24,433 bases of DNA, taken from positions 1-24,433 of IMG/VR virus record IMGVR_UViG_3300028025_000214; one strand, 5' to 3'. Both the position numbers and the translations under genes were made by a program. Each line of letters opens with the position of its first letter. Within the stretch, counting starts at the first letter, position 1. The notes beneath the pieces are model-generated. The model did not search any database and had not been told where the DNA came from. It worked only from the letters and a program-made list of their open reading frames with translations. Origin of the DNA: a virus. Below, piece by piece: positions 3,741 through 14,708 of the stretch.

Positions 3741-4412
3741 TTAAGGGGGAGTTGGGCGGGGGTCAGGCAACCGCGCAATAAAGTTAACTGCCATTACTAC
3801 GGAAGCGGCGGCTGGATACGGAGCAGATGCCGCAATAGACTCTAGCGTTACATTGGTGTTATCTGCGCCCCATTGCATCTCAATGTACTCACTAGCCGCC
3901 AAATCAATGTTGAAGTTCCAAGACACATTCATGTGATTGTCAGAGCCTTCAACGGTATATTTATGGGCAGAATATCCAATCGTAACGTTGTTGCGTTTAA
4001 TCCAAATCTGCACATCTTTGGCTGAAGCATTTGTACTCTTTAACTGAGCCGACAACTGGAAGTTATACACCCCGCCTACAGCCACCTCAATTTTAGAAGT
4101 GCTGGCAGTCTGTAGGGCCACATTGTTGTTCAGGTATGTGACGTTGAATGTGATTGGGTAGCCCGTATCTACAGCGGCTAAAGTCTGATCTACGGTGCTA
4201 AAGAACAACCCATTAGGTGAATTATTTAAAGACGGATCAAGTGAACCAGAGGCCGTTAATTGTGCGGTCAGGGCATCAAGTCGGTTAAAGTACAAGCGAA
4301 GCACATTGAGCATCTGGTCAAAATACACACGGTCGTACTCTTGCGGAGGTAGAGGCACGTTAGGTGCGGCTACCTTGTTAAGCTCAAACTCAGTGGTGAC
4401 AATAAAGCTCAT
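3741..4412 (-). CDS. Probable tail fibre / jelly-roll (C1q-like) structural protein
   Basis: The 223-aa protein has two parts. Residues 1-55 are helical, with YDRVYFDQMLNVLRLYFNRL typical of a trimerising phage fibre neck. Residues about 85-215 are beta-rich, with the pattern G-x-Y-N-F-Q-L-S-A-Q-L, then Q-I-W-I-K-R-N, then a segment ending E-Y-I-E-M-Q-W, then A-S-V-V-M-A-V-N-F. That strand pattern matches TNF/C1q-like jelly rolls on phage fibres. It starts within the stop of the nozzle-like gene (ATGA overlap), so the two are probably translationally coupled. The C-terminus is proline-rich. A receptor-binding or tail-peripheral role is inferred; the exact family was not checked. Confidence 0.7.
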   Translation of the reverse strand: MSFIVTTEFELNKVAAPNVPLPPQEYDRVYFDQMLNVLRLYFNRLDALTAQLTASGSLDPSLNNSPNGLFFSTVDQTLAAVDTGYPITFNVTYLNNNVALQTASTSKIEVAVGGVYNFQLSAQLKSTNASAKDVQIWIKRNNVTIGYSAHKYTVEGSDNHMNVSWNFNIDLAASEYIEMQWGADNTNVTLESIAASAPYPAAASVVMAVNFIARLPDPRPTPP

Positions 4413-6496
4413 CGCCTGCCGTCCGGTCTGATGTCAATACGGGTAGCACCCAACTGCCATGTTGTGCCAAGGTTAGAAGAAGCAACCTTTAAAATAAGCT
4501 GGCGACCACGTACCCGTGTATTAATCTGGCCTGTAAAGCCTTCAGTCACTGTGTACTGAGCGCCAGTTAGCTTATTAACGTTCTTATCTACCGCAGTCCC
4601 TGTGCCTGAGCCTGAGTTCTGCATAGGATACAAAGTGTACGTAACTTGCGGAGTTGGTGAGGCATCTGACCCTGAGAATGTCAGGTCAGGGAGCATTCTC
4701 CAGACAAAGCCAAAGTGTTCGCCATCTTCAATGTCAAACTCAGCAGAGGAGATATAAGCCTCAATACCTGCTGGCGTACCAGTCTCGTTGTTGTCTAAGC
4801 CAAACTCTTGATTAACTAAGTTGTAGTTGTATGTGGCGGCAATAGGGTAATCCCTTAGACCAGAATCAAGCCATGCGGTACGTTCCATTGTGCCGTAGTA
4901 CCAGACCTTCTCAAGATAGTTGTACACGACATAACGGTTGGCAACTAGACTACCAGCCGAGCAATAGAACCACCAGACCTCATTGAAACCCTCGTTTGTA
5001 CTGGCAAAAACCTGTTGGTTTTGCTGAAGGTTAATGTCTTGATAGATGTACCGACGCAGGTCACAGCTTAAGGTTTGTAAGCGTCCATCGTATATATAGA
5101 ACTTGTCCACACCCATCCAGTACACAACACCAGAAGCCTGCGTTGCCGCATTCTGGCCAAGGATAGAGATGTTGTCACCCATCAATTGGCTAGACCAAAC
5201 CACAGGTGGGCCAATGTATTGGAGAGAATAGATGGCTGAATCAGTCCACACCAAGATCTCCTGACGGGTCTGAACGGCAGTCACAATGCTGGAGCCGTGC
5301 GACAACTGCACACTACCAGCTTGATTGGTTGCAGATGGTGTCCAGTTAACCACAGACTCCTGATTTGACCAGCGAATCAACATAGGATTCTGCGTTGTAG
5401 AGCCGTAGTCATTACAACCAAAAGCAAACACAAATCGGCTAACGTCAGATACAAAGACAAAGTTCTGGATGATTGGGCAATCTGATGCACCAGCCAGATT
5501 TACGATGTTTACACCATTTGGCATGATGTAATGAGTCCCAGACTGCGTTCCTGTTGTAGTAATAGCCGCACCGCCAACCGTCAAGGCTAGGTTAAATGTT
5601 GTGCCGCTGGTGTTTACAACGTAGTAAACGGTTCCGGGAGACAGGCCTGTAGGCAGAGCCGCAGGATAGCCGCTATTTGTAAAGACAACCGGAGCGTCAT
5701 TAGGCAAACTAAACGCCGCTGTAACCACCGCAGGAGAAGCTATAGTGACCGTAGCCAAGGATGGGTCTACACCGTAACCAGCATCCCAATAATAGATTGG
5801 GCCGCCACGGTAGGCATAAACCAAATCCTCACCAAAGTTGTTCTGGCTCCATAAACGCAGAGCAGATGTGGATGTACCACCAAAGCCCCAAGTTCCTGCA
5901 CCCCATGTGCCAGCACCCCAGCCAGACAATGGAATCTCGTATGGATCGCCTGTGTTAATTTGATAGACTGCGTTTACATCTGTACCACCGCCAGCCGCAA
6001 CTGTTGAGGTCGCCGCCGTAGCGGCTACGATTGTGTATGTATTAGCATCAATAACAGTGACTTGATATTCATTGTTTAAATCAAGTCCACCTACGGGAGC
6101 TACGTTACTAAACGTTACAAAGTCACCTGTAATTGCGCCGTGGGCTGAATCTGTAACTGTAACTAAAGTAAGTAAGTTGGTTGTGGCAAACGGATTGCTC
6201 AGAATAGCCGTTGCCCGAAGAGGCGTGATGTCGTTGTACTGACCACCCAACTCAAGGTAAAACTTTAAGTTAGTGCCCACTCCTATTAGATTCAAGTTAT
6301 CTAGCGTGATCCAGTTCCACAATGAGCGGCACAGGCCTTGGAATGTGGATACAGATATACGTGCCCAGCCACCTATTTTCTCAGGTGAACCTTGGCGGAA
6401 CCGCACTTTGTCGGACTCATACCAACCACCTTCGTTGGTATAACGGGTGTTCTCCCGGTTAACGCCCGGCTTTAGTACAAGTTTTTTAAGCGCCAT
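4409..6496 (-). CDS. Large tail hub/nozzle-like virion protein, 695 aa
   Basis: The N-terminus (KPGVNRENTRY, GGWYESDKVRFR, PEKIGGWAR) is a signature I associate with large podovirus structural proteins at the tail hub, comparable in place to P22 gp10 or T7 gp12. Tryptophan/tyrosine-rich beta repeats suggest a propeller-like fold, for example residues 372-440 (IRWSNQESVVNW, QEILVWTDSAIYSL) and 455-475. Two small beta modules appear inserted: residues about 108-178 (AHGAITGDFVTF, NEYQVTVIDANTYTI) and about 250-326 (YPAALPTGLSPGTVYYVV, TFNLALTVGGAAI). The first resembles a module in the protein at 22650-23168. Its start lies 9 nt after the holin stop, and its stop shares ATGA with the next gene. 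The structural assignment is likely; the nozzle name is tentative. Confidence 0.75.
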   Translation of the reverse strand: MALKKLVLKPGVNRENTRYTNEGGWYESDKVRFRQGSPEKIGGWARISVSTFQGLCRSLWNWITLDNLNLIGVGTNLKFYLELGGQYNDITPLRATAILSNPFATTNLLTLVTVTDSAHGAITGDFVTFSNVAPVGGLDLNNEYQVTVIDANTYTIVAATAATSTVAAGGGTDVNAVYQINTGDPYEIPLSGWGAGTWGAGTWGFGGTSTSALRLWSQNNFGEDLVYAYRGGPIYYWDAGYGVDPSLATVTIASPAVVTAAFSLPNDAPVVFTNSGYPAALPTGLSPGTVYYVVNTSGTTFNLALTVGGAAITTTGTQSGTHYIMPNGVNIVNLAGASDCPIIQNFVFVSDVSRFVFAFGCNDYGSTTQNPMLIRWSNQESVVNWTPSATNQAGSVQLSHGSSIVTAVQTRQEILVWTDSAIYSLQYIGPPVVWSSQLMGDNISILGQNAATQASGVVYWMGVDKFYIYDGRLQTLSCDLRRYIYQDINLQQNQQVFASTNEGFNEVWWFYCSAGSLVANRYVVYNYLEKVWYYGTMERTAWLDSGLRDYPIAATYNYNLVNQEFGLDNNETGTPAGIEAYISSAEFDIEDGEHFGFVWRMLPDLTFSGSDASPTPQVTYTLYPMQNSGSGTGTAVDKNVNKLTGAQYTVTEGFTGQINTRVRGRQLILKVASSNLGTTWQLGATRIDIRPDGRR

Positions 6497-6505
6497 GAGC
6501 TACCT

Positions 6506-6943
6506 TTATTTACTGGCAACGCCTTTGGTCTTCTCAAAAGAACGCATACCGGCAATGCCCAAGATGCCTGATAATATCACCCAAAGTTGGTCTGCGTCTA
6601 GTACTGGCGGGGGATCCATACCCACTGGAACCCAGCCCATAGCTTGCAAGTATTTCCAGCACCATTGGAACAATGGGTACAGTAAAAACTGATAGCCCAT
6701 AGCCGCCACACCAATCCAGCCAATAGCAGGCCTCCAGCCTGAAACAAACACGCTAGAAGAGGAGGCTTCAATCTTGTTGACCTCAATCTGGGCTAAGTCT
6801 GTAGCTTGGTCAATACGCTTCTCTTCAAGATCAAGCTTACGTTGCTCAATCTCCATCTCCATCTTTTCTTTATCGGTGGTGATTAGGTCGCCTGCAACCT
6901 TACCCACGGCTTCAATAATTGATCCAACGGCAAGCAAGCTCAT
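6506..6943 (-). CDS. Holin of the 3-transmembrane type
   Basis: The 145-aa protein has an N-terminal amphipathic stretch, a charged coiled coil (residues about 24-58, KEKMEMEIEQRKLDLEEKR) and then the block SGWRPAIGWIGVAAMGYQF. Further hydrophobic segments follow (YPLFQWCWKYL; LWVILSGILGIAGMRSFEK). The block W-R-P-x-x-G-W and the C-terminal G-I-A-G-x-R-S-x-E-K-x-K-G are characteristic of the GTA/3TM holin family as I remember it. Holins form the inner-membrane lesion that releases or activates the endolysin. It overlaps the endolysin stop by an ATGA-type junction, a standard lysis pairing. Length and motifs fit well. Confidence 0.88.
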   Translation of the reverse strand: MSLLAVGSIIEAVGKVAGDLITTDKEKMEMEIEQRKLDLEEKRIDQATDLAQIEVNKIEASSSSVFVSGWRPAIGWIGVAAMGYQFLLYPLFQWCWKYLQAMGWVPVGMDPPPVLDADQLWVILSGILGIAGMRSFEKTKGVASK

Positions 6944-8803: not shown

Positions 8804-9301
8804 TTAGGGAGTCTCAGGCCAAGTCATTGTCCAAGGGAAACCGCTTGCCGCAGTGATATCACGCAGTGCTTGGCGGTATGTAGCCCATGCAGTTTTATCT
8901 GCGGTGCTGTCGGCAATCTGTGTCCAGTCGCAGTCCTTGAGCTTTTCTGTACGTGTGCGGCGTACATTGGCGGCTTGTTCTGCGTCCTTCATTGCACGAT
9001 AAGCGGCTTCGTTCTCAGCGGCTGTTTTGGCAGGCTCTGTTTCTGTTGCTGGCGTATCAGTAAAAATAGGGCCAAGAACGTACTTTGTGTACCATTTGCC
9101 CTCCAGTTGCTCTACGCCTTGACGCATGGAGAATTGATAGACTGTGCCGCCGGAAGCCTGTGGGCCTTCAAAGACAATGTCTGCGCCCCAGTCGTTTAAA
9201 CCTGCTTCGGTCAAAACTTTGGGCAATCCCAAACCAAAATGCAGTCTGCGGAACTCGTCCTCATACATAACTGCGCCAGTGTCTCTTACACGAATTTGCA
9301 T
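8804..9301 (-). CDS. Phage tail-assembly chaperone-like protein
   Basis: The 165-aa protein has a C-terminal domain (residues about 112-164) reading R-T-R-T-E-K-L-K-D-C-D-W-T-Q, then WATYRQALRDI, then GFPWTMTWPETP. This is the hallmark of the Phage_tail_APC family often found beside tail-fibre genes. The N-terminal part (residues 1-75) is a distinct mixed fold with IRVRDTGAVMYEDEFRRLHF. In related phages these proteins act as fibre-assembly chaperones or trailers. The neighbouring large fibre gene, 9 nt upstream, fits. SD-like AAGGAA precedes ATG 9301. Confidence 0.82.
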   Translation of the reverse strand: MQIRVRDTGAVMYEDEFRRLHFGLGLPKVLTEAGLNDWGADIVFEGPQASGGTVYQFSMRQGVEQLEGKWYTKYVLGPIFTDTPATETEPAKTAAENEAAYRAMKDAEQAANVRRTRTEKLKDCDWTQIADSTADKTAWATYRQALRDITAASGFPWTMTWPETP

Positions 9302-9310
9302 GATGATTCC

Positions 9311-11338
9311 TTATGCTATTGCCAAGAAGATAAATGTGCCACCGCTTGCATTGATAGCGGCTGGCGCAGTTGAACTAATTTCAAATCCTGCGCTGTATGC
9401 GTCAACGTAATCGGTGTTGGTCACTTCGGCTGTTGAACTGTTTAAAATTTTGTAAGGGTCATTACCCGCCACGATGCCACGGGCTGAGTCCCATACATAC
9501 CAATCACCAGTTGAGTCTGTGCGTTTGATTAGAACAAACCTTGCCCCTGCTGTAAAGCCACAATTAATTTGGAGCGTTGTGGCTGTTCCTGTGTAGCTCC
9601 CTACTTTGGAGACACCTGCACAAGTGGCAAATAGATACGCAACAAATGTAACCCCATTAGCGTTTGCTCCCGTGGAATTACCTAACGAGAAAACTGAAGA
9701 AGTTGGTGTTGTGCTATTCCATTGAGGTGCGCCCGGCCCATCTTTTGCGGCAGTTGTATCTAACGACAAAATGTAATCAGTTCCAATTGCCGCCGAATAA
9801 ACAGGCCAATATCCAGCCGCACTTCGTGATTTAACAATCATCAACTCAGGTACTGCCGCTAAGTTATGGTTAATTGTTCTAGCAGATGCGTTACCTGTAT
9901 AGCAAACCACATCAAGAAAACTTGGTGCTCGAGCAAATGTTTCTGAAACATAAGTTTGAGAACCAAAATTCCAAGCCACATAAAAACCACCAATATCATT
10001 TTGAATAATTGAAGTGCTATTTATGGCTGTTATGCCGTAAGTCGCTGGACTTTCTGCCCCTGTATCATATGTGCCTAATTCAGATTTAAATCCACGCAAT
10101 CTATCTACAACACCGCATCCTGCGGCACGATTAAATTGCAAAACCAAATCAGCATTTGGTGCGCTTGCACCAGTCAAAATTCTTCCTGTTGTCCCATTTG
10201 CTGTATAAGCGTATGGATTAAAAACACTAGTCCCACTCGTAGGTACAGCCATCGGGCCTCTACGAATGGCTATGTAAATGATAGTTTCAGTTGAAGCTGA
10301 TGATAAATCTGTAAATCCAGTAGAGTCGATGGAAAGAATATTGCTTCCTGACGCTTCTGCATTTGTGAGGTTTGCAAATAAATATGCGTCTGTACCTGAT
10401 GCAGTTAAACCCCGCATATTGTCTACAATTCGCCAACTAGACACACCAGATGCACTTTTTATCATAATCCATTGAGGCTCAAATCCAAGCGTGACTTTGC
10501 CATTGCTACGAACATAAGACCCACACATAATTGCATTGTCTGTACCAGTCAGACCAAAGCCTCCTGCGTCATGGGCGAATAGGTAGGCTACGTAGGTTTG
10601 TCCTGACTGATTGGTTGTGTTTGAAGTGCCGACACTAAAAACCGTGCTAGTGGGTGCAGTTGAATTGAAGTAAGTTGGCTCTGAAGATTGCGCATCTGTT
10701 GCTTGCAACTGCATTGCAAATGCTGCGGAAGTCATTCCCCTGTGATATACCGCCCATACATACGCGCTACTTGTGCATTTGATAATGATGCATCCCGGCG
10801 TAGAGCCGAGATTGTGCGCAATCGTTCTGTTGGAACCCGTCCCTGTATAAGTCACAACATCAAAGAACTTTGGTTGCTTGCGGAATGTCCATGAGGCGTA
10901 TGTGCCACCATTAGCATTTCCACCACCATCAAGACCTAATGAAAATCCATCAGAGTTAAATGATGTTAAAGAAGTTGCGTCTGTGTCTTGAGCGTTTGTT
11001 AAATCGCTATAAAGTATTTTTGTAGCACCTCTCGCTGTGTCAAAAAGCTGATGATTACGAACTGCATCACGCCTTTTTATCCAAGTGAGTCCACCCTTGC
11101 CAGACAAGTCAATCCCATTGGTAATGGTCTGTGTAGAGCCGTTGCCTGTATAAAGGTATGTTGAAAACACATTCTCAATAAAATTTTGAGTATTGCCCTG
11201 TGTAGGCCATTGGCCAAGCTTTTGCCAGTATGCCTGTTGATTAAGCGTCCACACACCGGGCGCAGTGCTGTTTGCGTATGGGCCTGATGGTACAGGTGCA
11301 GTCTTGGAGATTATTCCGCCGGGGTACTGTTTAGACAT
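9311..11338 (-). CDS. Large tail fibre with repeated domains (DUF7483-like), 675 aa
   Basis: The N-terminus combines MSKQYPGGIIS (residues 1-11) with GVWTLNQQAYWQKLGQWP (28-45). Both modules recur in neighbouring fibre proteins and probably dock to the tail. The rest is repetitive. Units centred at residues about 62-104, 160-202, 270-312, 475-517 and 578-622 share the plan Y-T-G-N-G-S-x-x-T-I, H-N-L-G-x-x-P, I-I-I-K, W-x-V-Y-D, R-G, and are followed by S-x-G-F and A-Y-L-F strands. From memory this is the DUF7483-type fibre repeat. The product is likely a trimeric receptor-binding fibre. The start codon lies inside the stop region of the previous gene. Confidence 0.82.
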   Translation of the reverse strand: MSKQYPGGIISKTAPVPSGPYANSTAPGVWTLNQQAYWQKLGQWPTQGNTQNFIENVFSTYLYTGNGSTQTITNGIDLSGKGGLTWIKRRDAVRNHQLFDTARGATKILYSDLTNAQDTDATSLTSFNSDGFSLGLDGGGNANGGTYASWTFRKQPKFFDVVTYTGTGSNRTIAHNLGSTPGCIIIKCTSSAYVWAVYHRGMTSAAFAMQLQATDAQSSEPTYFNSTAPTSTVFSVGTSNTTNQSGQTYVAYLFAHDAGGFGLTGTDNAIMCGSYVRSNGKVTLGFEPQWIMIKSASGVSSWRIVDNMRGLTASGTDAYLFANLTNAEASGSNILSIDSTGFTDLSSASTETIIYIAIRRGPMAVPTSGTSVFNPYAYTANGTTGRILTGASAPNADLVLQFNRAAGCGVVDRLRGFKSELGTYDTGAESPATYGITAINSTSIIQNDIGGFYVAWNFGSQTYVSETFARAPSFLDVVCYTGNASARTINHNLAAVPELMIVKSRSAAGYWPVYSAAIGTDYILSLDTTAAKDGPGAPQWNSTTPTSSVFSLGNSTGANANGVTFVAYLFATCAGVSKVGSYTGTATTLQINCGFTAGARFVLIKRTDSTGDWYVWDSARGIVAGNDPYKILNSSTAEVTNTDYVDAYSAGFEISSTAPAAINASGGTFIFLAIA

Positions 11339-11675
11339 TAGTCACCTCAACCCATGAAGTTGTTGGCTCGTCCCATGTATAACGCTTATTGTCTGTTGGC
11401 ATTGGTGTAGGGGCATTCCATTGGCAAGTTGTTTCGTTTAAACCCCAAGATGCGTATGGCTTGGGTGGAATAAAAGCATCACGTCCTGAGTCATATGTGT
11501 AACCAACTCCTGCGTAATTCTTACGCAATGGGCGACCTTCAGGATGCTGACCGCCATAGGTGTTATACGAGGTCTGCACCCAGCCTGTACCAAACAGGCC
11601 TGAATCAATAACGTCCTGTTCAGCCACAATAACTTGGGTGACGATGCCGTTTTCTACTTTTGCAAAATGACTCAT
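11331..11675 (-). CDS. Small tail-fibre-associated protein, 114 aa
   Basis: The likely start is ATG 11675 (MSHFAKVENGIVTQVIVAEQ), not the in-frame extension to 11714, which would run into the upstream coding region. The opening is a well-conserved phage pattern as I recall it. The middle (GQHPEGRPLRKNYAGVGYTY) and end (APTPMPTDNKRYTWDEPTTS) are rich in Pro, Tyr and Trp. This type of protein occurs next to fibre genes in many phages and cyanophages, and its function is not established to my knowledge. It lies between a polyglycine adhesin candidate and the large repeat fibre, overlapping the latter by 8 nt. Confidence 0.78.
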   Translation of the reverse strand: MSHFAKVENGIVTQVIVAEQDVIDSGLFGTGWVQTSYNTYGGQHPEGRPLRKNYAGVGYTYDSGRDAFIPPKPYASWGLNETTCQWNAPTPMPTDNKRYTWDEPTTSWVEVTNV

Positions 11676-11683
11676 GTTGTGCC

Positions 11684-12583
11684 TCAGAATGTGATTGAAC
11701 CTGACGAAGTCCATTGATAAACGCGATAGCCGCCAGCTACTGTAATTGTAGGAGAACCTGTAGTGGATGTAGCGGCTAAATAAGTGTCGGCATAACGAAT
11801 GACAACAATGCCTGAACCACCAGCACCGCCAGTGTCCCCACCACCCCCGCCACCACCTCTGTTTGCAGTGCCAGCGCTTCCAGTAGCAGAGTAAACAGCA
11901 CCAGCCCCACCGCCACCAGAACCTCCAGCACCACCAGTTTGGTTGAATGTACTTCCACCACCGCCGCCAGCGTATGTTACAGATGAGCCAGAAATAGAGG
12001 ATGCTGTGCCATCACCGCCTTTGCCACCAACTGTTGCTTGACCTGCCTGACCAGCTTGACTAGCTCCGCCGCCACCGCCAGCTTGTAGATTATCATCATT
12101 TGAATTGTGAGCACGACCTGCACCACCATTTGTGCCTTGAGCTGGTGATGTTGATGGAGTGTTTCCTGTGCCACCAGCACCACCTGCGCTTGCGCCACTT
12201 TGCCAAACATTACCACCACCGCCAGAGCCACCGTTTCCACCAGCGGCAGAAGCCGATTGACTTACAGTTGTACCGCCATTTCCACCGCCAGCGGATGTAA
12301 TAGTGCTAAATACAGAGTCTGAGCCAGATGCACCAGATGCACCGCCAGCACCAACAGTTACAGTAATTGCAGAACCAGAAAGTACCTCAAATATAGCCGC
12401 TGTTCTAAAACCACCCGCACCGCCACCACCACCGCTATAACCCGAAACACCACCGCCGCCACCGCCGCCGCCAGCTACAACAAGATATTCAACAGATGGC
12501 GGTGCAACAGGAACAGGCCAAGTGCCCGCCGCTATAGCTTGCATCTGCTGTCTTAATGTCCATGATCCTGAGTATCGAGCCAT
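11684..12583 (-). CDS. Polyglycine-rich adhesin-like tail protein B, 299 aa
   Basis: The N-terminal anchor SGSWTLRQQMQAIAAGTWP (residues 5-23) resembles the second module of the 675-aa fibre. From VEYLVVAGGGGGGGG (residues about 32-46) the sequence is a glycine lattice with GGGG clusters, and it closes with GSGIVVIRYADT and GGYRVYQWTSSGSITF. Repeated Gly runs separated by short polar segments are expected of packed polyglycine-II helices, as in the T-even/S16 gp38 adhesins. Function (host-receptor recognition) is inferred. It is a clear paralogue of the next upstream gene (12591-13484). The DNA is a dense run of ccaccgcc-like units on the plus strand. Confidence 0.8.
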   Translation of the reverse strand: MARYSGSWTLRQQMQAIAAGTWPVPVAPPSVEYLVVAGGGGGGGGVSGYSGGGGGAGGFRTAAIFEVLSGSAITVTVGAGGASGASGSDSVFSTITSAGGGNGGTTVSQSASAAGGNGGSGGGGNVWQSGASAGGAGGTGNTPSTSPAQGTNGGAGRAHNSNDDNLQAGGGGGASQAGQAGQATVGGKGGDGTASSISGSSVTYAGGGGGSTFNQTGGAGGSGGGGAGAVYSATGSAGTANRGGGGGGGDTGGAGGSGIVVIRYADTYLAATSTTGSPTITVAGGYRVYQWTSSGSITF

Positions 12584-12590
12584 GTTATCC

Positions 12591-13484
12591 TCAGAAAGTT
12601 ATTGAACCGCTGGAAGTCCATGTGTAAATACGATAACCGCCAGATACGGTAACTGTTGGTAATCCTGTAGTAGAAGCCGCAGGGTCAAAAGTATCGGCGT
12701 AACGGATGATGACAATGCCAGAGCCACCTGCACCAGCATTCTTCGCTGATGCACTAGAGCTACTACCGCCACCGCCGCCACCAGTATTTGCCGTTCCACT
12801 TGTTGCGTCAACACTTGGTTTTGCACCAGTACCACCACCACCAGTACCGCCTGCGCCAACTGTTGATGCGGCATTTTCTGCACCGCCACCACCGCCGCCA
12901 GCATAAGTTACAGATGAGCCAGTAATACTAGATGCCGATCCATTTCCACCTGCACCGCTATTGTAAGGACTTGCACCACTTGCGTTGCCACCAACAGCAC
13001 CCGCACCGCCACCACCGCCGCCAGAATCACTACCGCCAGTGCCAGCACCATTACCACCAGTATTACCTTGACCAGAAGTCCCGCTTCCGCCTAAACCCAG
13101 TCGTCCACCGCCACCACCACCAGAGCCTCCTGAACTTCCATTGTCTCCAGAAGTATTTGTTAAAGCACCACCACCACCACCACCGCCTGTAGCTGTAATG
13201 CTAGAAAATACACTATTACTACCATTATTCCCATTACCCGCAGATGATGGAGCCGCGCCTCCTGCGCCAACAGTAACGGTTATTGCAGACCCAGTTGAAA
13301 CAGCAAATCCTGAAGCGGTAAGAAAACCGCCCGCACCGCCACCACCGCCTGAGCTACTTGTATTTGTGGCCCTTCCGCCACTAGCACCGCCAGCAACAAC
13401 CAAATACTCAACTGTTGGAGGTGGTGATGCGGCTAATGCATTAAAAGAAGCGGTAATAAACCCGCCGGGATAGCGATTGGACAT
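12591..13484 (-). CDS. Polyglycine-rich adhesin-like tail protein A, 297 aa
   Basis: It opens MSNRYPGGFITASF, sharing the YPGG-F/I-I module with the 675-aa fibre. It then has the same VEYLVVAGG entry, glycine lattice and exit (GSGIVIIRYADT; GGYRIYTWTSSGSITF) as the gene immediately downstream. The 'ITVTVGAGG' and 'SSITGSSVTYAGGGGGG' segments are shared by both copies, while the loops between Gly clusters differ. This is the pattern expected when adhesin loops diversify on a constant scaffold. Probable role: exposed receptor-binding tip. The two copies are separated by only 7 nt. Confidence 0.8.
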   Translation of the reverse strand: MSNRYPGGFITASFNALAASPPPTVEYLVVAGGASGGRATNTSSSGGGGGAGGFLTASGFAVSTGSAITVTVGAGGAAPSSAGNGNNGSNSVFSSITATGGGGGGGALTNTSGDNGSSGGSGGGGGGRLGLGGSGTSGQGNTGGNGAGTGGSDSGGGGGGAGAVGGNASGASPYNSGAGGNGSASSITGSSVTYAGGGGGGAENAASTVGAGGTGGGGTGAKPSVDATSGTANTGGGGGGSSSSASAKNAGAGGSGIVIIRYADTFDPAASTTGLPTVTVSGGYRIYTWTSSGSITF

Positions 13485-13496
13485 CTTCTACCCCAA

Positions 13497-13892
13497 TCAG
13501 GAAATGACTTCGTAACTGATGCTGTATGTGATACCGCTGGCTGTGCCGGATGTAACGATAATTGACGAGCCTTCCATTAAATATACAGCAGTGGTTTTAT
13601 CAACCACAATCAATGAAGCATCAGCAGGAACCGACACTGTAGACACGATTGGATAAGCTGTACCGCTAGAAGGAGCGGAGCCTTGAGCCACAGCGCCGTT
13701 GGTGTAGATTGCCACAGTGGTATCTACAGCCGCAGAACCATTAACGTTAGCCGCAACGATCTGGTTGATTTTAAAAACCTGACCACTAGAAGCCGCATTA
13801 GGGACAAGAACAACAGCAGTTGTAGCACTGGGTGTGAGGTATGTAGTTGTGCCTGACGCTGTGGTCGCGGCGAAAAGATTTGGATTTGCCAT
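13497..13892 (-). CDS. Small beta-rich virion structural protein, 131 aa
   Basis: The protein begins MANPNLFAATTASGTTTYLT and is made of short Val/Ile/Thr strands (VKINQIVAAN-like; TVAIYTNGAV; ASLIVVDKTTAVYLMEGSSI; GITYSISYEVIS). It lacks charged motifs, membrane segments and catalytic residues. Similar 110-130-aa proteins with the N-P-x-L-F-x-x-T-T-x-x-G-x-T-T start accompany fibre genes in many environmental phages as I remember them. They are thought to be peripheral tail or head proteins, without a proven role. SD GGAA precedes ATG 13892. Confidence 0.72.
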   Translation of the reverse strand: MANPNLFAATTASGTTTYLTPSATTAVVLVPNAASSGQVFKINQIVAANVNGSAAVDTTVAIYTNGAVAQGSAPSSGTAYPIVSTVSVPADASLIVVDKTTAVYLMEGSSIIVTSGTASGITYSISYEVIS

Positions 13893-13901
13893 GATAGTTC
13901 C

Positions 13902-14708
13902 TTAAAAGCCAAAGACCATTGCGATGGCCGTTGCCTTCGCTTGAGATACACCAGAAGCCGCAGGTGCGGCAGATGTCCATGTAGTACCGTTAGACACTAA
14001 AACATTACCGTTTGAGCCGGGGGCAACGAAATTAGGCGTTGATGTACCGTTACCCAGAATCACGTTGTTAGCAGTCAAAGTGGTTAGACCTGTACCGCCT
14101 TGGTCAACGCCCAGAGTACCCGTAGACACCAAGTTCTTACTGCCGTTTGTAAATACAGGCTTACTGGCAGTCAGTGAAGAATCAATGATGTCATTGGCGG
14201 TCAGCGTTGTGCCATCAAATGTCAAGTTGGCAGAAGCTCCAAACGCACCAGAACTATTAAACTGAACCTGCGTGTTAGAACCTGCTGGTAAGCCGCCGCC
14301 CACATTTACAAAGTTAGTGCCGTCCCAAGCAATGATGGCCCGAGTCCCAGCCGCTACAGTAACACCTGTTCCGGTTGCCGCTTTTACAAGAATTGACTGG
14401 GTGCTAGACGTTTTGTTGATAACAACGTAGGTCTTAGACTGGGCTGGAACCGTAATGGTGCGTGTAGCTGTGCCGCCAGCAGTCCACAAGATAACTGCGT
14501 ACTGAGAGCTATTACCTGTCAGACCTGTGCCTGCGTATGTACCCGTAGTAACAGTTAATGTAATGTCAGCATCAGTGGAAATTGTCTGTGTACCAGCAAC
14601 GGCAACGTCAATAATCTGTGAGATGGCGTTGTTAACTGTGTCGCCCCACTGCCCGGACAGTGTGCCCGTGGCTGGTAGCGTGAGGCCGATTAGTGCTGTA
14701 TTTGCCAT
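13902..14708 (-). CDS. Tail-fibre/collar-type protein with GGTG repeats, 268 aa
   Basis: The N-terminus (TALIGLTLPATGTLSGQWGD, then VNNAISQIIDVAVAG) is a widely seen phage fibre opening. Residues about 55-140 are beta-rich and glycine-spaced. Residues 150-250 carry the fibre-shaft pattern: LTANDIIDSSLTASKPVFTN, then GVDQGGTGLTTLTANNVILG, then SNGNVLVSNGTTW. The C-terminal tail is GVSQAKATAIAMVFGF. The GVxxGGTGxT unit is typical of trimeric beta-helical fibre shafts. This supports a tail-fibre or fibre-extension role. AGGAG precedes ATG 14708. Confidence 0.8.
   Translation of the reverse strand: MANTALIGLTLPATGTLSGQWGDTVNNAISQIIDVAVAGTQTISTDADITLTVTTGTYAGTGLTGNSSQYAVILWTAGGTATRTITVPAQSKTYVVINKTSSTQSILVKAATGTGVTVAAGTRAIIAWDGTNFVNVGGGLPAGSNTQVQFNSSGAFGASANLTFDGTTLTANDIIDSSLTASKPVFTNGSKNLVSTGTLGVDQGGTGLTTLTANNVILGNGTSTPNFVAPGSNGNVLVSNGTTWTSAAPAASGVSQAKATAIAMVFGF

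Follow-up and report, generated by a model that had tools for sequence, protein, structure and literature searches.

The window analysed here is a single virus record, IMGVR_UViG_3300028025_000214, taken over its whole length of 24,433 bases. Seven genes on its minus strand are transcribed in the order U2, U1, B, A, S, C, APC. Gene B (12591-13484; 297 aa) occupies what we term slot 1 and joins a short leader, MSNRYPGGFITASFNAL, to a Gly_rich_2 head; gene A (11684-12583; 299 aa), transcribed after B across a gap of only 7 nt, occupies slot 2, with the leader MARYSGSWTLRQQMQAIAAGTWP and a Gly_rich_2 head of its own. They are followed by S (11331-11675), a 114-residue protein beginning MSHFAKVENG that accompanies Gly_rich_2 genes and is a candidate assembly chaperone or cap, by protein C in slot 3 (9311-11338), in which a full leader, MSKQYPGGIISK...APGVWTLNQQAYWQKLGQWP, precedes two DUF7483 domains, and by APC (8804-9301), which resembles tail or tail-fibre assembly chaperones. 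On the upstream side lie U1 (13497-13892; 131 aa), a conserved flank of the site at which heads are swapped, and U2 (13902-14708), a candidate fibre base or adapter with a conserved N-terminus and a variable C-terminus. The PHROG names attached to the window's proteins are a mixture of tail and head terms. Genes A and B are two slots of a cassette that sits between conserved genes, and comparison with relatives points to a modular kit for attachment and not to a mere pair of duplicates.

Both A (30.8% glycine) and B (31.6%) belong to the Gly_rich_2 family. Matches to PF21722 have E-values of 1.7e-25 for A and 5.9e-26 for B, with scores of 90.8 and 92.3 bits that lie far above the curated cut-off of 24.3, and they span positions 7-225 and 16-225 of the 226-position model in the two genes; both also match phrog_2295. 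End to end the two proteins align at 53% identity (E 2e-98, with composition correction off). A shared glycine bias was considered as the source of this match and is ruled out, because the exit half still aligns under composition-based statistics (52.9% over 121 residues, E 2e-21). The initial annotation described a constant frame carrying variable loops, and this description holds on both counts. The frame strands VEYLVVAGG, GSGIV[VI]IRYADT and GGYR[VI]YxWTSSGSITF are found in A and B alike, and the entry and exit strands are near-constant in a 62-row family alignment (mean entropy 0.34 and 0.21 bits, respectively); over the core of the same alignment 78 glycine columns average 0.70 bits, versus 2.12 bits for 114 non-glycine columns, a division that the structure models and matches also bear out. 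In six other loci (L026, L076, L081, L088, L096 and L111) a single open reading frame has at least two consecutive glycine-rich domain motifs, an alternative to tandem genes.

Monomer models of A and B were built with AF2 on the 62-row alignment and have mean pLDDT values of 92.3 and 92.8. The glycine stretches, where an adhesin of the S16 gp38 type would have polyglycine-II packing, are mostly neither helix nor strand. The leader of A is predicted, at moderate confidence, to form a short helix (model residues 9-18), and that of B is a low-confidence prediction with no helix. Foldseek searches of the PDB give weak matches, with the tail fibre of cyanophage Pam3 (7ypx_A) at the top for A (E 0.024) and the tail-tip protein of mycobacteriophage Bxb1 (9d93_Qa) at the top for B (E 6.7e-4); 7ypx_A matches B at E 6.9e-3. 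With a second aligner, VIA, Pam3 7ypx_A matches A with Z 12.4 (165 residues aligned, rmsd 2.6) and B with Z 14.8 (174 residues, rmsd 2.4), and Bxb1 9d93_Qb gives Z 12.2 for A and 15.1 for B; the next matches, to glycine-rich domains of ALK/LTK, fall to Z of about 5. The Pam3 fibre is also recovered by sequence with a profile of the family (E 6e-4). A constant frame with a variable tip is therefore a known architecture, since the models match the Pam3 fibre tip and the Bxb1 protein, whose chain Q in 9D93 has the same Gly-rich fold as A and B.

The Pam3 fibre gp24 (7YPX, 7YFW) is a close known parallel in that it, too, combines a TNF-like domain with a glycine-rich head and has a partner chaperone gene, and both window models display the TNF-like plus glycine-rich fold that characterizes such tips. 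The published description gives the fibre a TNF-like domain and a glycine-rich lattice of six loops, names gp25 as its specific chaperone, and proposes the hypervariable distal ends of the glycine-rich domain as the receptor-recognition site (PMC9608196). The differences lie in the mounting: Pam3 mounts its only fibre protein through a long helical bundle, whereas the window has several head genes on short leaders. Tips of the Pam3 type are characterized as homotrimers docked by an N-terminal helical bundle; in the monomer models, the leader of A has one short helix and that of B none. The small companion S also differs from the Pam3 chaperone. Another glycine-rich lattice is that of the polyglycine adhesin gp38 of Salmonella phage S16 (6F45), the middle domain of which is a β-helix and not TNF-like, as the same paper states (PMC9608196); neither the Foldseek nor the VIA match lists for A and B contain gp38.

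The N-termini of A and B had been noted as different, and they indeed behave as separate, position-specific leaders of about 20-45 residues. The slot-1 consensus is MSxRYxGGFITASYNGL (core RYxGGFI) and that of slot 2 is MPNYSGSWTLRQQMQAIAAGTW (core NYSGxWTLRQQMQ). Protein C combines the leader motif of A with that of B, a point that the first reading passed over, and slot-3 leaders take the form MSKQYPGG[IL]I[ST]K...AxGIWTLxQQA...GxWP. The leaders were classed with hand-made patterns that match some unrelated open reading frames as well. When neighbouring leader-bearing genes were counted after deduplication on their first 60 residues, with two rows (L017 and L054) judged by eye to be misclassified and set aside, half-leaders ran from slot 1 to slot 2 in 25 pairs and from slot 2 to slot 1 in five, with no 1-1 or 2-2 pair. 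Pairs that include a full leader ran from slot 2 to full in three cases, from full to full in five (six with one row misread by the pattern) and from full to slot 2 in one. Searched as protein, the full leader matched one of 50,697 phage records, DSL-LC04, which according to its report was assembled from a metagenome (PMC10611076).

The strict alternation of half-leaders, in 30 of 30 neighbouring pairs, together with the pairing of full-leader genes with one another, could be taken to mean that slot-1 and slot-2 proteins join in a hetero-complex, each bringing half of the leader that slot-3 proteins have entire, and that the two halves meet at a single docking site. The pairs, however, are of common ancestry and not independent, for which reason no probability is put on the leader-order counts, and the slot-2 leader, which has a YSG resembling the one with which the full leader starts, may instead be a shortened form of the latter. 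We regard the hetero-complex as a doubtful proposition, at perhaps the weight of a secondary candidate.

To view the region in a sample independent of the adhesins, loci were collected by a downstream marker, a 695-residue protein (window 4409-6496) that matches the virion protein family phrog_3287; 80 loci were kept from at least 600 matches, and the 33 with at least 5.5 kb of upstream DNA were read. Seven GTDB contigs have relatives of the marker, all of them from MAGs and of different groups, and therefore no phage host is claimed. The heads found on the conserved leaders comprise Gly_rich_2, fn3 plus Gly_rich_2, DUF7483, laminin-G and RCC1 domains. One locus with a marker 90% identical to that of the window (L118) holds a tandem pair of full-leader DUF7483 proteins and lacks a glycine-rich gene; another, at 88% (L122), has two glycine-rich genes (one above the Gly_rich_2 threshold), S and a DUF7483 protein; three at 84-85% (L125, L132 and L135) have four Gly_rich_2 genes and S; and in one at 72% (L127) the slot-2 leader is found on RCC1 β-propeller proteins (L127:1570-2730 and 5655-6824). 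The adjacent U1 is up to 96% identical in relatives with differing neighbouring adhesin heads. A single copy with invariant loops in related phages, which the initial annotation had set down as the pattern contrary to its proposal, was not seen: relatives have from zero to four leader-bearing adhesins, with differing heads.

Head exchange has also left its mark within gene A. Over its first 60 nt the gene shares 88% identity with the slot-2 genes of two relatives (L037 and L039) but only 38% with the slot-1 gene of L037; over nucleotides 541-645 it shares 93% with that slot-1 gene versus 57-67% with the slot-2 gene of L037. A tree places the core of A as sister to the L037 slot-1 core (SH-aLRT 97), and cores 88% (L036) and 80% (L038) identical to it stand under unrelated leaders. 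As judged from these sequence comparisons, gene A is a mosaic, in which a slot-2 leader precedes a core closest to those of L036, L038 and L037 slot 1. More generally, 13 pairs of cores that are at least 70% identical carry different leaders, and in the set of window type (15 slot-1 and 11 slot-2 cores) 13 of the 26 cores have their nearest neighbour in their own slot, with a mean of 12.8 on shuffling, so that slot and nearest core are unrelated in this set. Shuffling is nevertheless not universal, because in one sub-group (L007, L011, L025, L027, L125, L132 and L135) heads track slots; this sub-group mainly accounts for the clustering of slot labels on a tree of 65 leader-bearing cores (22 changes versus a shuffled mean of 28.7, with none of 200 shuffles as low), a tree with poor support for most of its inner branches (5 of 62 starred).

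These comparisons bear on the direction of exchange. An origin of B and A by tandem duplication in this lineage, with diversification by mutual recombination of their loops, would fit their common family, adjacent position and shared entry and exit strands, and loci with at least two Gly-rich open reading frames are common (53 of 107, in a sample that was picked via A or B and is biased to the Gly-rich domain). Against it, cores within a locus are no closer than cores of different loci (50.9% versus 51.0% identity, in 89 versus 9213 pairs; p 0.62), A and B have no exact DNA match longer than 19 nt, and the core of A, which shares 52% identity with that of B, shares 88% with one on another contig. 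Exchange of loops within the pair as the main process is accordingly rejected, and we consider this duplication scenario very improbable, the least credible of those weighed here. The earlier suggestion of loop recombination within the tandem pair is thus not upheld. Of the mosaic copies that it led one to look for, gene A is an instance, but the exchange that is seen runs between leader and head and, because tandem cores resemble each other no more than cores from separate loci do, between phages.

The presence of S is closely tied to that of Gly_rich_2 genes. The longer reading frame of S matches phrog_7759, a family of unknown function (E 1.4e-33). Among the 30 marker loci that extend 6.5 kb or more upstream, S is present in all seven that have Gly_rich_2 and in none of the 23 that lack it (Fisher p 4.9e-7, kinship ignored). 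It lies within 2 kb of the cluster in 103 of 120 Gly_rich_2 loci, most of them picked via A or B, and seven of the 17 loci without a nearby S had less than 2 kb of downstream DNA remaining. A search with the S protein itself matched 41 phage records, 24 of which were examined, near-duplicates and one unlisted row being skipped; Gly_rich_2 is within 3 kb of S in 23 of these 24 and within 65 nt in 17, the exception being an uncultured phage of 735 kb in which the match to S is weak. This companionship spans phage records of several families and hosts (L199-L222), several of them metagenome-derived. Two cultured examples are Roseobacter phage CRP-207 and Pelagibacter phage HTVC025P, in which S and Gly_rich_2 genes are neighbours but the leaders seen in the window are absent. 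By its genomic company, then, S is a candidate dedicated chaperone or cap for Gly_rich_2 proteins. No kinship of S with a chaperone of known structure came to light: its profile has no match among PDB sequences up to E 5, and searches gave no match in Pfam (longer reading frame, up to E 0.1) or NCBIfam (up to E 1). Genes annotated as 2OG-Fe(II) oxygenases are found near S in a number of the records (L199, L210, L212-L216, L218 and L220-L222; 10 in all counting L199), which raises the question of whether fibre tips are hydroxylated.

A second pairing of head and helper appears at slot 3. Protein C matches PF24299 (DUF7483) in two stretches (E 2.5e-104), and APC matches PF16778 (E 8e-18; 64.5 bits, above the curated cut-off of 26.6). 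In all five relatives with a DUF7483 protein in slot 3 the following gene starts M[QE]IRxRxTG, as in the window, and with a slot-3 protein of laminin-G type, assigned by a short motif with a Pfam check of L128, it starts M[FQ][IV]AK in 11 of 12, the remaining one having no such gene in range. The N-terminus of APC tracks the slot-3 head type, as would be expected of a cognate fibre chaperone. At the other end of the cassette the N-terminal part of U2 aligns in most marker-selected loci, with a varying C-terminus and total lengths of 186 to 1331 aa. Forms of at least 699 aa (699-1331) occur in none of 10 loci with leader-bearing adhesins and in seven of 17 without (one-sided p of about 0.02, computed by hand; three of 30 loci had no usable U2, and two false positives, L131 and L167, were counted as leaderless), which faintly hints that U2 may be a fibre base.

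Protein C also matches two differently labelled PHROGs, one of head and packaging (virion structural protein) and the other of tail fibre. The former would suit an interpretation of A and B as decorations of the capsid surface or head that stick loosely to cells or surfaces and are not specific tail adhesins. The best fold matches of A and B, on the other hand, are tail-fibre and tail-tip proteins, and the cassette ends in a chaperone gene of the tail assembly type; we think such decorations unlikely.

We prefer, with a probability of roughly three in four, the explanation that a tailed phage here has a modular cassette for host recognition with A and B as its receptor-binding tips, and that in each protein a slot leader does the docking and the head is exchangeable. 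Each slot-specific N-terminal leader probably docks its protein to the virion. The β-strands VEYLVV and GSGIVIIRY and those of the C-terminus would form the base of the Gly_rich_2 head, from which the glycine-rich lattice would project, and variable residues at the ends of the loops would meet the host surface; A and B might provide two specificities. Recombination in the DNA that joins leader and head would move heads between leaders and between phages, and a phage could therefore alter its binding without altering how the tip is mounted. A broader and more speculative version, which we hold only tentatively though above the hetero-complex, is a plug-in system independent of fold: a leader grammar (half 1, half 2 or both) would mount unrelated heads at fixed virion sites, paired halves would make mixed tips, and each head type would travel with its own helper, S with Gly_rich_2 and an N-terminally matched APC with slot 3.

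A conserved mount bearing a swapped head is a known general idea, as two papers show (PMC3909814, PMC6872550). The first describes host-recognition genes, including tail fibres, in variable islands of related marine phages (PMC3909814), and the second describes Klebsiella phages that have several receptor-binding proteins, some of them mounted by short conserved peptides at the N-terminus, and whose heads have been exchanged from phage to phage (PMC6872550). The window cassette is alike in having a conserved short N-terminal peptide and a swapped remainder, an arrangement by which anchor-plus-conserved-peptide receptor-binding systems are recognized. The Klebsiella heads differ in being depolymerases, and there the first protein combines an anchor with a T4gp10-like docking domain; neither turned up in a scan of 10 window proteins, in which Pfam gave no match for a T4gp10-like docking domain. 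In Alteromonas phage A5/V22 a tail fibre and its cognate chaperone are shared together among distant phages; its host recognition module, as described, has a different fibre and one tail fibre/chaperone pair per module (PMC10579305). Our literature search returned no paper naming Gly_rich_2, DUF7483, PF24299 or phrog_7759, and the window's specific leaders, their alternation and the link to S were not found in print in the literature searched. What is new here is how the locus is built, with its slots, leaders and head swapping.

Marine and lake phages alter their host-recognition genes fast, and the parts that are kept and those that are swapped are seldom so readable as they are at this locus. 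The kept piece is the leader, the swapped piece is a whole fold, and the DNA shows where one gives way to the other. Should the leaders be docking tags, receptor-binding proteins of any fold could be recognized by them in unannotated phage genomes. The tight link between S and Gly_rich_2 offers a testable role for a protein of unknown function.
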